In this document: positions 54,922 to 63,193 of the stretch, piece by piece
Numbering within the stretch: the stretch's first letter is position 1
Layout of the letters: the number at the start of each line of letters is the position of its first letter
Assembly: GCA_023623175.1 (NCBI GenBank)
Contig: JAMNXU010000021.1
Location: 194,912-258,911, forward strand
Source: Bacillota bacterium
Lineage (GTDB): Bacteria > Bacillota > Clostridia > Acetivibrionales > JAMNXU01
Length of the DNA stretch: 64,000 nt
Reading direction: 5' to 3'
Program-made: the position numbers and the translations under genes
The notes under the pieces: generated by a model
What the model saw: only the letters and a program-made list of their open reading frames with translations
Told to the model about the DNA's origin: nothing
The model's database searches: none

Positions 54922-55305
54922 TCATTTCGTTTGTATTACTGCGCAGGCTACAGCGTAGCTCTCCGAGTGGGACAGGCTGACTGAAATGTCCGTTGCCCCA
55001 AGAGCCTCGTACATTTGCAGCCCCTTTCCCGCCAGCCTTACAAAGGGCTTTCCTCCTTCATCATTCAGTATCTCTATGTCTGTCCAGGACAGTCCGTCGG
55101 CTATGCCCGTGCCGAAAGCCTTGGCTACGGCCTCCTTGGCAGCGAAGCGGGCGGCAAAGCATTTATATTTCAGGGCTTTTCTGCCTTCGCAGTATTCAAT
55201 TTCCGACGCGGTGAAAACCTTATTTACGAAAGCTTGTCCCAGGCGGTCGATGGTTTTTTTTACCCTGTCAATTTCTATAATATCAATGCCGCAAAGAACT
55301 CCCAC
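54922..55305 (-). CDS. acpS: Holo-[acyl-carrier-protein] synthase
   Basis: A 127-residue 4'-phosphopantetheinyl transferase with the Mg-binding GIDIIEIDRV and FAARFAAKEAVAKAFGTGI motifs. It activates the acyl carrier protein for lipid synthesis. GTG start behind GGAGAC. It sits between the unknown membrane coiled-coil gene (17 bases upstream) and yhaO-like (13 bases downstream), an unusual location for acpS. Confidence 0.95.
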   Translation of the reverse strand: MGVLCGIDIIEIDRVKKTIDRLGQAFVNKVFTASEIEYCEGRKALKYKCFAARFAAKEAVAKAFGTGIADGLSWTDIEILNDEGGKPFVRLAGKGLQMYEALGATDISVSLSHSESYAVACAVIQTK

Positions 55306-55322
55306 AACAATAACCGTCTCCT

Positions 55323-56147
55323 TTATATTCTCTTCCTGCTGCGCCTGTGCTCTTCAAGCGCGTTGTCAAGAGCCATGGCTTCATTAACGGCGTTTTCCAT
55401 CTCTTTCACCGTTTCTTCGGTCTCGACACCGGAAATGATCCGGTGCTTGTACATGTTTATCATGCTCTCGAGGTAATCAAGGCGGGCCCTTATCCTTTCG
55501 AGCTCGTTCCTTTCCTCCTTCAGTCTCTCGAGAAGCCTTTCATCCATTTCCACGGTCTTTCGCAGGTCGTCCTCAATAAAAGGGTCCTGCACGAAATTGA
55601 GCTTCCTTTTGTTTGCATTGATCCTGTCATAAATTTCGGAATAATTATGGCTTTCAAGTTCCCTTTTTCTCTTGCAGTAATTTATAAGGAGGCGCACGTA
55701 GGATACGGCAAGGATAAGAGCCTGTTCCACGACATTTTCCTCGATCTCGCTGCGTTCGCGGCGCAGGCTTCGTTTATCGTGAAAAAACGAATTTACGATA
55801 TCGTCCTTATCCTCCATGACCTTTTTAAGCTTTTGCTGATATGTGGCGTTGGTATACTTCCTTGCTTCGGAGGAAAGCCTTATGCTCATGTAGTTGAGAT
55901 TGCGGATCTGCTTTATTTTCTGCTTTTTGGCGAACTCTTCATAAAACCGGGCGCTGAAAAAACTCTGGAAAACGAGGGCAATATAAACGGCAGCCACTGC
56001 GGCAACCGGGCCAAACTGTCCCAACGGTATTGCCGTCAAAGGGAGATAAGGATATGCAGTCAGCAACAGCCCCGACAGTATGAGAAGTACCGCGAGGTTC
56101 CTTGTCCTTAAAAATGCACTGACCAACAACCTTAATTTCATATCCAT
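55323..56147 (-). CDS. Two-helix membrane protein with long coiled coil, unknown
   Basis: A 274-residue protein. Two hydrophobic helices (about residues 18-34 and 43-62) are followed by about 210 highly charged residues rich in K, E and R with heptad-like stretches (RLKEERNELERIRARLDYLE), so the bulk is a cytoplasmic coiled coil. I do not recognise a family. It begins 15 bases after the pspA stop (AAGGGA upstream of ATG 56141; ATG 56147 also possible), so it is almost certainly cotranscribed with pspA and may be its membrane partner. Confidence 0.8.
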   Translation of the reverse strand: MDMKLRLLVSAFLRTRNLAVLLILSGLLLTAYPYLPLTAIPLGQFGPVAAVAAVYIALVFQSFFSARFYEEFAKKQKIKQIRNLNYMSIRLSSEARKYTNATYQQKLKKVMEDKDDIVNSFFHDKRSLRRERSEIEENVVEQALILAVSYVRLLINYCKRKRELESHNYSEIYDRINANKRKLNFVQDPFIEDDLRKTVEMDERLLERLKEERNELERIRARLDYLESMINMYKHRIISGVETEETVKEMENAVNEAMALDNALEEHRRSRKRI

Positions 56148-56162
56148 CCCTTCACTTCCCGG

Positions 56163-56891
56163 TTAATTTTCAAGCTTGTCCTGCTTCCTTTCCCTGACTT
56201 CAAACCCCCTGTCACCGGAAAGCAAAGCCTCAGCGCGGATACGGGCCCTTTCCCTTGCGGAATCCATGTCAAGCCTTTTGAGCTTCATCTCGATATTGCT
56301 GTCATTTAAAGATTCAACCGCATTTGCCCTCGCCATGTTCCTGTTGACAATATCCCTGGCCCTTTCAAGGCTTTCATTAATTTTGTTTATGTTGCCGGTT
56401 TTGCTGCTGTAACGGGCGCTGACGGAATTGATGTTTTCCCTGAGTTTTGCTATCTTGGTCTGAGATTTGAGCGTTTTGAGTTCATTGAGCCTTGCGTTCA
56501 TTTCGGACTCAAAAATCCTGTAATCCTCGCGTACCTTCGCCACCTCTTCCATGGCGTTTTCATAGGTTTGCCTGAGGCTCTCATACGCGTTTTGATATTC
56601 TTCTTCCTGCATGAGGAGGTCAATAAGCAGATCCTTCTGCTGCTGCCTTTGCGCCGCTTCCACCCTGGCCCTTATGGCTCTCAGGTTCTTTTCGGCGTTG
56701 TTCATTTCTATTTTTATCAGTTCCGCATTGGTCTGCAGGTCAAATATTTGTTTTTCGGCCTGCTTCCGGGCCTTTTCGATCTGGTTTTTTATATCCTCGA
56801 AAAGAGCTTCTGGATTTCTCTCCTCGAATCTTCTAACGGACAACCCGAAAATTCCCCGGATCACTGCGCCGATCCTGCTGAACAAACCCAT
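56163..56891 (-). CDS. PspA/IM30 (Vipp1) family protein
   Basis: A 242-residue, almost entirely helical protein. An amphipathic N-terminal segment (MGLFSRIGAVIRGIFG) is followed by long coiled-coil helices (NAEKNLRAIRARVEAAQRQQ), the ESCRT-III-like architecture of PspA/Vipp1 membrane-stress proteins. Its typical length is about 220-250. ATG behind AAGGAGG. The upstream 245 bases are very AT-rich and likely hold the promoter. Upstream on the same strand is a AAA ATPase, which suggests an ESCRT-III/Vps4-like pairing. Confidence 0.9.
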   Translation of the reverse strand: MGLFSRIGAVIRGIFGLSVRRFEERNPEALFEDIKNQIEKARKQAEKQIFDLQTNAELIKIEMNNAEKNLRAIRARVEAAQRQQQKDLLIDLLMQEEEYQNAYESLRQTYENAMEEVAKVREDYRIFESEMNARLNELKTLKSQTKIAKLRENINSVSARYSSKTGNINKINESLERARDIVNRNMARANAVESLNDSNIEMKLKRLDMDSARERARIRAEALLSGDRGFEVRERKQDKLEN

Positions 56892-57136
56892 TCCCGCCGC
56901 CTCCTTATCAAAAAATTAAATATTTCTTCAGCTAACCAGGTTAATTTTTATTGTATTTTATTTAAGTTTAACGTTAATTAATATAACTTTAACTAATATT
57001 ATAATAACCGATTCCAGTCAATTAAGTTAAGATTAGCCATATTTTGATTAAGATTAGACTTTATTAATGACTTTGTTAACAAGGTAGTTTAGTATTTTTT
57101 AACCAATTGATCTTGGATTTGAATGACCAGGTGTCT

Positions 57137-58741
57137 TTAGTCTTTTCTGTCCAGGAGTTCCCTGTACTTTTCCGGTAACAGATCCCTGTCGTCACATTCG
57201 CGAATGGCGAGCATCGTCATGAACTCCACCTGTTGAGTGCTCGGGACGCATTTCATGATGGCCTCTTCCAGGATATCCTTCGTAAGTACCGCCTTATCGC
57301 CGTCCCTCTCGCTCGCGAGCTCATAGGCTTTTCTGACGACCACGTCAATCTCTGCGCCGGTGTAGTTTTCGGTTTTCTCCGCGAGCGGCATGAAATCGTT
57401 GACGTCGGTCTCAAAACCGTATTTTTTGATTACAACCCTGAATATTTCAGCTCTTTCGGGTGCTTCCGGAAGCAATATGGGAATTTTCTTGTCGAATCTT
57501 CCGGCCCTTTTCAGCGCGGGATCGAGCAGATCCGGCCTGTTCGTGGCAGCTATGAAAATAACTTTGCCTCTATTATTTGTATTACTCGTAAACTGCAAAA
57601 ATTCGCTGAAAATGTTCCTGTTTACTCCCGTGTCGTCCCGCTCGCCCCTCCGGAACACCGTGTCGATTTCGTCCACGAAAACTATGACGGGCTCCTGGGA
57701 CTGGGCTCCCAGCAGGCATTTTTTGAAATTCTTTTCGCTTTCGCCCACGTATTGTCCCAGGATCCGCGACATGTCGATCTTGACGCAGTTGAATCCGCTG
57801 GTCTTTGCCAGCGCGTTCACGAGCAGCGTCTTGCCCGTCCCCGAGGGCCCGCAGAGAAGTATTCCCATCGGAACGCGCCTTAAATCGCCTTTCTTTACCG
57901 GTTCGACTATGTTCTTTATGAGATAGCGCTTTGCTAGATCCATGCCGCCGATGTCGTCAAAATCGATTTCCGGGTAAATAAACTCCAGTACGTCCCCGTA
58001 TTCCTTCCTGAGAACCGAATGTTTCTTCTCCTTTATAAATTCAAAACTGATGGGGACGTCCTCGGCCTCGGCCTTGAGCTTAATGTCCTTTATGGATTTC
58101 TTTGAAAGGCCCGAGGAGAGTTTCGCGAATTCGTCGATACTTATTTCCGTTTTTACGCTTTTGTCGCGAAGCAGGTATTCTATATACTCCCTGCGCTGTG
58201 CCTCGTTGGGCAGACCCACCAGTATCGGTTCCACGCAATATGCGGAACTCAGAAGCTCCCTGCTCACATCTGCCAGGTTGTCGGCCAGGAGGAAAACGGT
58301 GCTTCCTACGGCGGAAATCTTGTTGCTGTTTGACCATTCGCACGTCCATATAAGCGCTACCCTCTCCTCGAGGGACATGCTGCCTGTGTCAACGGCCGGA
58401 ATTATCTTCTCCACGTGGTTTATAAACAGGCACATCTTTGTGCTCTTGAGCGCCTTGTCAATAAAGGGAAAAATTCTCGAAGGCAGGGCATTCATGACAT
58501 TTACGGCCCTGTTGGAAGTAATGAGATGAAATTCCCTTTCCATGGCCGGCTCCAAAAACGTCAGGCCCGTGGATATGTCATAAAAAGCTACAATCGAGAA
58601 CTTCCTGGCCTTTATGAATTCGTCGTAAATATACTGCTCTATATACCTTTCGTTGTCCACAAGGTCCCTGACATTGAAATAGAGCAAAAATTCGTGGGAT
58701 ATTCCGGCCCTGTATTTGCTTAAAAATTCGTCAAACCACAT
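57137..58741 (-). CDS. CDC48/Vps4-like AAA ATPase with degenerate first module
   Basis: About 534 residues from ATG 58741 (start uncertain; the frame is open to 58822). The C-terminal half is a complete classic AAA domain: DDIGGMDLAKRYL, Walker A GILLCGPSGTGKT (about residues 293-305), Walker B VIVFVDEIDTVF, the second region of homology AATNRPDLLDPALKRAGRFD and a C-terminal helical lid. The N-terminal ~220 residues look like a second AAA fold without a P-loop (MCLFINHVEKIIP at the Walker B place). It probably remodels a protein partner; PspA encoded downstream is the obvious candidate. Confidence 0.88.
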   Translation of the reverse strand: MWFDEFLSKYRAGISHEFLLYFNVRDLVDNERYIEQYIYDEFIKARKFSIVAFYDISTGLTFLEPAMEREFHLITSNRAVNVMNALPSRIFPFIDKALKSTKMCLFINHVEKIIPAVDTGSMSLEERVALIWTCEWSNSNKISAVGSTVFLLADNLADVSRELLSSAYCVEPILVGLPNEAQRREYIEYLLRDKSVKTEISIDEFAKLSSGLSKKSIKDIKLKAEAEDVPISFEFIKEKKHSVLRKEYGDVLEFIYPEIDFDDIGGMDLAKRYLIKNIVEPVKKGDLRRVPMGILLCGPSGTGKTLLVNALAKTSGFNCVKIDMSRILGQYVGESEKNFKKCLLGAQSQEPVIVFVDEIDTVFRRGERDDTGVNRNIFSEFLQFTSNTNNRGKVIFIAATNRPDLLDPALKRAGRFDKKIPILLPEAPERAEIFRVVIKKYGFETDVNDFMPLAEKTENYTGAEIDVVVRKAYELASERDGDKAVLTKDILEEAIMKCVPSTQQVEFMTMLAIRECDDRDLLPEKYRELLDRKD

Positions 58742-58824: not shown

Positions 58825-58977
58825 GTTAACTCGCGCAATAGTTAGCATTTCGGCAATGATTTATTTGCCGCAATGGTTAATGGCCGCAATGACTAACCTG
58901 CCGGTAAAGCTTAACCTGCCGGCAATGCTTAACTTGCCGGCAACGGTTAATTTACCTGCAATAATAACCTGCAATAA
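58825..58977. repeat. Degenerate 16-18-bp tandem repeats
   Basis: About nine head-to-tail units of a 16-18-base sequence of the type TTAACTTGCCGGCAATG, clearest at 58903-58955, degenerate at both ends. They lie immediately upstream of the AAA ATPase start, so in its promoter or leader. Confidence 0.7.
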
Positions 58978-59012
58978 TATTATACAGCCCGGACTCAAAA
59001 AAGTCTGAAACG

Positions 59013-61521: not shown

Positions 61522-63048
61522 CTATTTTCTGTTGAGTTTTTTCAACGCATTTACAATGGTGGTTTCCTGGTTCTTGATGTGCTCAATCGCCACATTTCTC
61601 GCCAGTTCGGGATCCCTGCGGCTGATGGCGTCATATATGCGGATGTGCTCTTCAATCAGATCCTTCGGGCTGCTGTAGTCCTTCATGTATATGACCCTGA
61701 ACCGGTGGACCTGTTCCCTCAGGTTGTTAATTATCTGGATAAGCTTGTCGTTCCTCGACGACTTGTAAATGACCTCGTGGAACTCCACGTCCTTTTTAAT
61801 GGAACCCTGCAGGTTCTCCTTTTCAATATAGGTCGTCAGCTGTGTCAGCACATTCTTGAGGCTGCTCAGTTCGCTTTCAGTTATCCTCTCCGCGGAAAGC
61901 GCCGTCGCAAGACCGTCGAGCGTAGCCCGGACCTCGAGTACATCCATGATGTCCTTCGTGGTTATTTCAGCCACATGGGCGCCTTTCCTCGGGATCATCT
62001 CCACGAGGCCTTCAAGCTCAAGTTTCCTGATGGCTTCCCTTACAGGCGTCCTGCTTACTCCTATTTTCTCCGAAAGCTGTACTTCCATCAGCCTCTCGCC
62101 GGGTTTTAATTCCCCGGTAATGATCGCTTCCTTGAGAGTATTGAAAACAACCTCCCTCAGAGGTTTATAATCATAAAGGTTAACCTTTGAAAATTTTCCT
62201 GCCATATTCGAACCATCTGTCCTGCTTTTCTCAAGCTTTTTCCAGGCATATTCAGCGGCAGTGGCGTCAGTAAAAACGGCGAAAACCGAGGGCCCGCTTC
62301 CGCTCATCAGCGATCCTGCCGCACCCAGCCTGATAAAAGATTCTTTTATCTGTCCTATAACTTCGTACCTGCTTACAGTCACACTCTCGAGAACATTAAC
62401 CATGTTGCGCGCCAGCAAACCTATATCCCCGGCCATGATAGCTTCCAGCAGCAGCCCGGTGTCAGGACGTTTTCCAACAGCATCGAGCTGAAGGTTCTGG
62501 TACACCCAGGCAGTGGACACCCTGATTCGAGGTCTCGCGATTATAATGTCAATACCGGGTATCCCGGGCAGCGGAGTCAGCACATCGCCGATCCCTTCGG
62601 CCAGCATTGTGCCTCCCATGATACAGAAGGGAACATCGGCTCCAAGCTTTTTCCCCATATCGCACAGGCCCTTTTTGCCTATTTTCGTCCCACACAGACG
62701 GTCAAGGGCAATGAGCACGGCTGCCGCGTCGGCGCTGCCTCCTCCAAGCCCCGCAGCTATGGGAATCCTCTTGACGATCCTGATATTCACTCCAAAATCA
62801 AGTCCCGTTTCCGTTTTAAACAGCTCCGCGGCCTTGTATGCCAGGTTCCTGTTATCCAGGGGCATTCTCCGGTCATTGCTTTCAATTTTTATTCCTTTTG
62901 AGCCGCCGCCAACTGAAACGGTGATTAAATCATGAAGACTGACGGACTGCATTATCATCCTGACATCGTGGTATCCGTCAGGCCTCCTGCCCGTAACATC
63001 AAGGGACAGGTTTATCTTGGCGTTGGCCCTGATTGTCAGGGAATCCAT
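61522..63048 (-). CDS. ispE: IspE kinase in frame with GntR/FCD regulator
   Basis: One uninterrupted 508-codon frame. Residues 1-281 are 4-diphosphocytidyl-2-C-methylerythritol kinase (IRANAKINLSLDVTG, AAGLGGGSADAAAVL, SLMSGSGPSVFAVF). From Met282 (ATG 62205) a complete 227-residue GntR regulator follows, with the winged helix KIGVSRTPVREAIRKLELEG and an FCD ligand domain. No stop separates them. Either this is a genuine fusion or the gntR part is also started internally. The usual last beta-strand of IspE seems missing at the junction. ATG 63048 lies five bases after GAGGT. Confidence 0.88.
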   Translation of the reverse strand: MDSLTIRANAKINLSLDVTGRRPDGYHDVRMIMQSVSLHDLITVSVGGGSKGIKIESNDRRMPLDNRNLAYKAAELFKTETGLDFGVNIRIVKRIPIAAGLGGGSADAAAVLIALDRLCGTKIGKKGLCDMGKKLGADVPFCIMGGTMLAEGIGDVLTPLPGIPGIDIIIARPRIRVSTAWVYQNLQLDAVGKRPDTGLLLEAIMAGDIGLLARNMVNVLESVTVSRYEVIGQIKESFIRLGAAGSLMSGSGPSVFAVFTDATAAEYAWKKLEKSRTDGSNMAGKFSKVNLYDYKPLREVVFNTLKEAIITGELKPGERLMEVQLSEKIGVSRTPVREAIRKLELEGLVEMIPRKGAHVAEITTKDIMDVLEVRATLDGLATALSAERITESELSSLKNVLTQLTTYIEKENLQGSIKKDVEFHEVIYKSSRNDKLIQIINNLREQVHRFRVIYMKDYSSPKDLIEEHIRIYDAISRRDPELARNVAIEHIKNQETTIVNALKKLNRK

Positions 63049-63193
63049 TCTGCACCTCGTCTGCATGGCTTTCAGTATATTATATACAAAAAACATTCCC
63101 ATTTCAATAAAAAGCGCCTGTTTCCTGAGACTCAGGCATTTTGAACAAGTTAGAAAATTAATTTTAATACATTATGCCATTACGCGGCAGTCT

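Follow-up and report, generated by a model that had tools for sequence, protein, structure and literature searches.

An association between PspA and an AAA ATPase was described by Ravi et al. 2024 (mSystems, PMC11237479), who reported an ATPase with two AAA domains, the first of them inactive, that is occasionally encoded beside PspA (example AEY64321.1). The authors proposed an ATP-dependent remodelling of membranes like that carried out by Snf7-Vps4, and left open how PspA proteins without an AAA ATPase regulate their assembly. In the 2024 study of PspA rods (Nat Struct Mol Biol, PMC11746142) the disassembly factor was merely guessed at, chaperones or PspF being named. Disassembly of PspA/Vipp1 polymers in bacteria is an open question, and the locus presented here supplies for it a candidate motor, a candidate membrane partner and a short tail amenable to mutation. 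As all of these occur in culturable Ruminiclostridium and Acetivibrio, the question becomes directly testable.

We compared the locus, which encodes an AAA ATPase, PspA and a 274-residue protein that we call CCM, to the described systems. It resembles ESCRT-III with Vps4/CdvC in that a polymerising protein of the ESCRT-III superfamily is encoded beside an AAA motor and bears a candidate C-terminal recognition tail, but the AAA protein is without an MIT domain, is tandem and has a dead first domain (D1). In an archaeal system a PspA-like gene likewise adjoins a CDC48-related ATPase, which differs in its N-terminal domain and in its winged-helix partners. The pair of Ravi et al. (PMC11237479) is alike in both ATPase architecture and pairing with PspA; the link of the ATPase to PspA, and the role suggested for it, had already been published. 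CCM, its recurrence without the ATPase, the PspA tail and a promoter element appear to be absent from the main texts, including that of Ravi et al. A literature search on the three genes in Clostridium thermocellum or Ruminiclostridium found nothing.

Organization of the locus

The DNA analysed (the window) is a stretch of 64,000 nt from a Bacillota bacterium (GCA_023623175.1, contig JAMNXU010000021.1, positions 194,912-258,911, forward strand). The AAA, pspA and CCM genes are consecutive on the minus strand with no further gene between them, as had been described before and at exactly the same coordinates (Table 1). A gap of 245 nt separates the AAA gene from pspA and one of 15 nt separates pspA from the CCM gene. 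On the 5' side of the AAA gene lies an M55 peptidase gene, while the trio is followed on the 3' side by acpS, which is probably not a part of the module, and then by SbcD-like and SbcC-like genes. Directly 5' of the AAA gene (58851-58979) are degenerate tandem repeats with periods of ~18 and 36 bp, whose units resemble GCCGGCAGGTTAA.

Table 1. Features of the AAA-pspA-CCM locus (window coordinates unless a relative is named)
Feature	Position	Strand	Residues, basis or remark
Tandem AAA ATPase	57137..58741	-	534 aa, ATG at 58741
Degenerate D1	57998..58642	-	residues ~34-248; alignment, AlphaFold model, tandem AAA matches in PDB
Active CDC48-type D2	57230..57976	-	residues ~256-504; Pfam, alignment, profile search
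Walker A GPSGTGKT	57827..57850	-	residues 298-305; alignment, invariant
Walker B VIVFVDE	57668..57688	-	residues 352-358; alignment
AAA-pspA intergenic region	56892..57136	-	no recognisable pspA upstream element here
pspA (PspA/IM30 family)	56163..56891	-	242 aa
PspA tail with GFEVRER	56166..56216	-	local form of GFEV[KR]E[KR]
CCM gene	55323..56147	-	274 aa
Two predicted CCM membrane helices	55959..56105	-	residues ~15-34 and ~43-63; AlphaFold model, hydropathy
acpS	54922..55305	-	3' neighbour, often conserved
TTTACA-N10-TTTATWATAAATTA, example	G054:C3:1421956-1421985		AAA-pspA intergenic region (seen in L033-L071)

The AAA protein is a tandem ATPase with an inactive first domain

The match of the AAA protein to PF00004 (2.3e-38) is confined to its C-terminal half, and over Pfam and NCBIfam only residues ~284-527 are assigned to the AAA family, closest to CDC48, PAN and FtsH. 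In an alignment of 28 relatives the second domain (D2) contains an invariant GPSGTGKT, the DE of Walker B, the ATNRPD sensor, R412/R415 and the pore-loop residue Y331, the aromatic at this position being invariant throughout the alignment. These CDC48-type motor features (Walker A/B, arginine fingers, aromatic pore loop) are present in D2 only. D1 lacks the Walker A motif and the P-loop lysine, and its DE is replaced by a Walker B-like FI[ND]HxEK, while its strand/helix order in the AlphaFold model (mean pLDDT 74.9 for the protein, residues 1-34 below 50) is that of an AAA domain. The whole chain matches the tandem AAA proteins p97, NVL and Rix7 in Foldseek, and the first match of a profile search is D2 of an archaeal VCP-like ATPase. 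Taken together, the alignment, the model and the fold and profile matches identify the protein as a CDC48-class tandem AAA ATPase with an inactive D1 and a complete set of motor motifs in D2. The published description of two AAA domains, the first inactive, encoded beside pspA fits it.

Tandem layout and CDC48-type D2 are shared with CDC48/p97/VAT and NVL/Rix7, but D1 here is without Walker A, no CDC48-type N-terminal substrate domain was detected and the protein has 534 aa. With an NCBIfam score of 173 bits against a CDC48 cut-off of 802, membership in the CDC48 family proper was rejected. Assignment to Vps4/CdvC was rejected on architecture, as the AAA domains are in tandem, Pfam gives no MIT match up to an E-value of 1 and the CdvC score of 135 bits misses the equivalog cut-off of 650. 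Of the earlier label "CDC48/Vps4-like", the CDC48-type motor of D2 is retained and Vps4 is dropped. A defence-system reading of the trio was also rejected, the PADLOC matches being merely to generic AAA or coiled-coil models.

Two distant relatives of the ATPase occur without pspA: one, 38% identical (L211, G001:C120), whose short contig also carries primase-like genes and is possibly a mobile element, and another on a plasmid of Paenibacillus polymyxa.

In E. coli, PspA keeps the AAA protein PspF silent by binding to it (PMC9239133), and the ATPase could by analogy be a regulator that is restrained by PspA and freed on envelope stress. We consider this very improbable, as Pfam and NCBIfam detect no DNA-binding domain in the protein and its tandem AAA domains, with a CDC48-type motor and an aromatic pore loop, are not of the sigma-54 activator type.

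PspA carries a C-terminal tail that accompanies the ATPase

The window PspA matches PF04012 over its full length with 1.1e-7 and 32.2 bits, 1.7 bits short of the curated cut-off of 33.9, and is the single match to this family in the genome (2.85 Mb). Its family identity is secure, since 21 of 22 relatives in the PspA family match PF04012 (best 3.1e-12) and the window protein can be aligned over its whole length with PspAs whose scores are 80-100 bits. The amphipathic segment at its N terminus (MGLFSR...GIFG) fits the MG[LIF]xxR feature of PspA/IM30. By these alignments it is a divergent member of the PspA/IM30 family. Direct Pfam comparison and multiple alignment served better for the assignment than comparison with PDB sequences or with E. 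coli PspA alone, neither of which gave a useful profile match.

A short motif, GFEV[KR]E[KR], is located near the C terminus of all ~50 distinct complete PspAs from AAA-bearing genomes, and the residues flanking it are variable. It also occurs in tandem, with three copies in L050 and two in L068. The AAA-less PspAs of L048 and L053 end ahead of the motif, and the PspAs of f76 and f116, which have no AAA gene nearby, have different C termini without it. The association between tail and ATPase draws on just two AAA-less relatives with a closely alignable PspA (G025 and G071), of which G071 may never have had the ATPase. In the PspA tree, which is poorly resolved and in which the placing of long branches is unsure, the end branches of L048 and L053 are long, 1.17 and 4.16 where the median is 0.17, and this fits a relaxed constraint on the AAA-less proteins. 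The AAA-less PspA of G071 (L053:4853-6120) adjoins acpS and the mechanosensitive channel gene mscL.

ESCRT-III proteins carry MIT-interacting motifs at their C termini. By analogy with these motifs, we propose that the PspA tail could be a handle gripped by the ATPase.

CCM is a membrane protein of no curated family

CCM has no notable match in Pfam, NCBIfam, PHROGs or PADLOC and belongs to no curated family. Its confident AlphaFold model (pLDDT 91.5, pTM 0.82), together with hydropathy, shows a pair of hydrophobic helices close to the N terminus and, after them, long helices that would constitute a helical cytosolic part. Like PspB/PspC of E. coli, PspM of actinobacteria and LiaI/LiaF, CCM is a small membrane protein whose gene lies next to pspA and which is proposed to tether PspA, but it matches none of their Pfam models.

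Paralogues of CCM are present in f13 (L057 and L060-L062) and in f6 (L058-L059). Those of L060-L062 adjoin a substrate-binding protein that is NMT1-like and includes an OmpA domain; the f6 paralogues have minD-like genes and an M23/M50 (SpoIVFA/FB-like) pair as neighbours.

CCM might itself be an ESCRT-III-like (Snf7-like) subunit, anchored in the membrane and forming mixed polymers with PspA. Operons that combine PspA, an AAA protein and a PBPB-OmpA protein with Snf7 homologues bearing a transmembrane segment are mentioned by Ravi et al. (PMC11237479), and a CCM paralogue adjoins an NMT1-OmpA protein. Such a role seems to us quite improbable: the Snf7 profile matches none of 36 CCM members and a profile comparison of CCM with PspA gives no similarity, so that homology to either lacks profile support. 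Foldseek finds no PDB match to the CCM fold at E<=0.001. VIA-align returns only designed bundles and generic helical proteins, and the PDB matches listed include no ESCRT-III chain; the comparison is uninformative for kinship.

The trio is conserved in the order

This order of spore-forming bacteria, which we placed by its named relatives, is represented by 58 species including Ruminiclostridium, Acetivibrio, Herbivorax and Pseudobacteroides. The published example AEY64321.1 presumably belongs to the same order, its source being the Ruminiclostridium relative Clostridium sp. BNL1100. The ATPase and PspA are each present in 53 of the 58 genomes and CCM in 51; all three are contiguous, with gene order kept, in 51, the AAA-PspA adjacency being found in 52 and the PspA-CCM adjacency in 51. 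PspA and CCM are separated in some genomes by a GNAT acetyltransferase gene. The contig stops right after the AAA gene in G008 and within PspA in G009. Adjacency in 51 genomes is far beyond chance, with the qualification that most of them form a single clade and are non-independent, and that the wider neighbourhood (ispE, gntR, acpS, sbcDC) is conserved as well. Outside the order, the three genes are likewise contiguous in two relatives at class level (G069 and G072). Conserved adjacency, the lack of which would for the first-pass annotation have refuted a module, is thus present.

All three genes are missing from four genomes of the 58 (G013 and three of family f8). G025 keeps gntR-PspA-acpS in the same place with a tail-less PspA, and has lost the ATPase and CCM. 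In G059, outside the order, a tailed PspA is followed by CCM and acpS on one contig, and the AAA gene, with FIST and histidine-kinase genes after it, is on another; all three genes are thus retained although the AAA gene is no longer linked to the other two.

Many of the genomes with the trio also keep its flanking genes, as would be expected if the ispE-gntR...acpS-sbcDC region were simply stable in this order of bacteria and the trio were no physical module. We judge this distinctly improbable. The trio is kept with differing flanks (L035, L045, L051, L065, L071), its members have gone together from L048 while the flanks remain, and G059 retains all three despite the broken linkage. The PspA-CCM pair, moreover, recurs in an unrelated setting.

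PspA and CCM also pair without the ATPase

In four genomes of another class of the same phylum (f76 and f116), a CCM homologue starts at the end of pspA. It aligns with CCM over 248 columns (hhalign 97.2%, E 4e-11). In f76 the pair is located behind FtsX-type ABC transporter genes, and in none of the four is an AAA gene found nearby. A profile built from the four homologues has no other match in 398 genomes of the phylum, 107 of which contain PF04012, and no further homologue was found in 101 genomes around G109. The presence of CCM beside pspA in two unlike neighbourhoods argues against mere synteny, and we infer that the CCM-PspA link is older than the link to the ATPase.

This pairing would also suit an arrangement in which PspA and CCM are the functional pair and the ATPase is a quality-control unfoldase whose main targets are CCM or other substrates of membrane stress, PspA being an adaptor or a bystander. 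The CCM paralogues beside the NMT1-OmpA protein and the M50 protease point the same way, as does the unlinked AAA gene of G059. Against it, the AAA gene adjoins pspA and not CCM in the order, and the feature associated with the ATPase, the tail, sits on PspA. We regard a quality-control role as unlikely.

An upstream element of pspA in relatives

The element TTTACA-N10-TTTATWATAAATTA is found just 5' of pspA in 46 of 52 genomes when two mismatches are allowed. As the motif was derived from pspA upstream regions, finding it there was to be expected; independent evidence comes from the exact copies, 21 in 58 genomes, all of which lie 5' of pspA and none elsewhere. The element looks like a dedicated promoter or operator of pspA. 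In the window it is unrecognisable (best score 2.3 of 31.6). Because pspA has its own upstream element in many genomes, the AAA gene and pspA would not always be one transcript.

A model for ATP-driven remodelling of PspA

What is seen directly is which genes are present and how they are linked, the domains of their products, and a PspA tail that occurs together with the ATPase; on this footing the AAA protein, PspA and CCM probably form a working membrane-remodelling machine. The particular arrangement in which an ATP-driven motor grips the PspA tail and CCM serves as the anchor is one to which we would give an even chance. PspA, judging from its family, would polymerise on the inner face of the membrane. 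CCM, held by its two membrane helices, would be the membrane partner that recruits or nucleates PspA. The ATPase would act as a hexameric unfoldase in which the dead D1 docks the substrate and the D2 motor pulls; by gripping GFEV[KR]E[KR] it may dismantle PspA polymers, the direction of action being the one that we favour. It would then do for PspA what Vps4 does for ESCRT-III, without being Vps4. The physiological role may lie in envelope stress or membrane repair. The tendency of the members to vanish together (G013 and the three f8 genomes; the ATPase and CCM in G025) counts for the module, and the distant AAA relatives without pspA (L211 and that of the Paenibacillus plasmid) count against it.

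A wider reading, which we put forward tentatively as possible though somewhat short of even, is that the locus is a bacterial counterpart of ESCRT-III/Vps4 of independent origin, consisting of a CDC48-type unfoldase, unlike Vps4, that recognises PspA polymers by their short C-terminal motif, which would act as an MIT-interacting motif does and has multiplied into tandem copies in some lineages, and of a dedicated CCM anchor older in the system than the ATPase. If true, at least one bacterial PspA would have the recycling motor that has so far been missing.

Further features of the neighbourhood

The locus had been suggested to be a self-contained module in spore formers. The module is borne out by the linkage and by the second PspA-CCM setting; for sporulation there is only a hint in the SipL-type gene (sipL) found a few genes upstream in many relatives. 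A FapA/DUF342 protein, often together with a GAF-domain protein, is encoded 3' of CCM in many relatives (L034, L036, L046, L054 and others) and is absent there in the window. IspE and the GntR/FCD regulator are encoded by separate adjacent genes in relatives, and in the window a single ORF of 526 aa (61522-63102, minus strand) contains the GHMP kinase (IspE), GntR and FCD domains, which reflects either a gene fusion or a lost stop codon.
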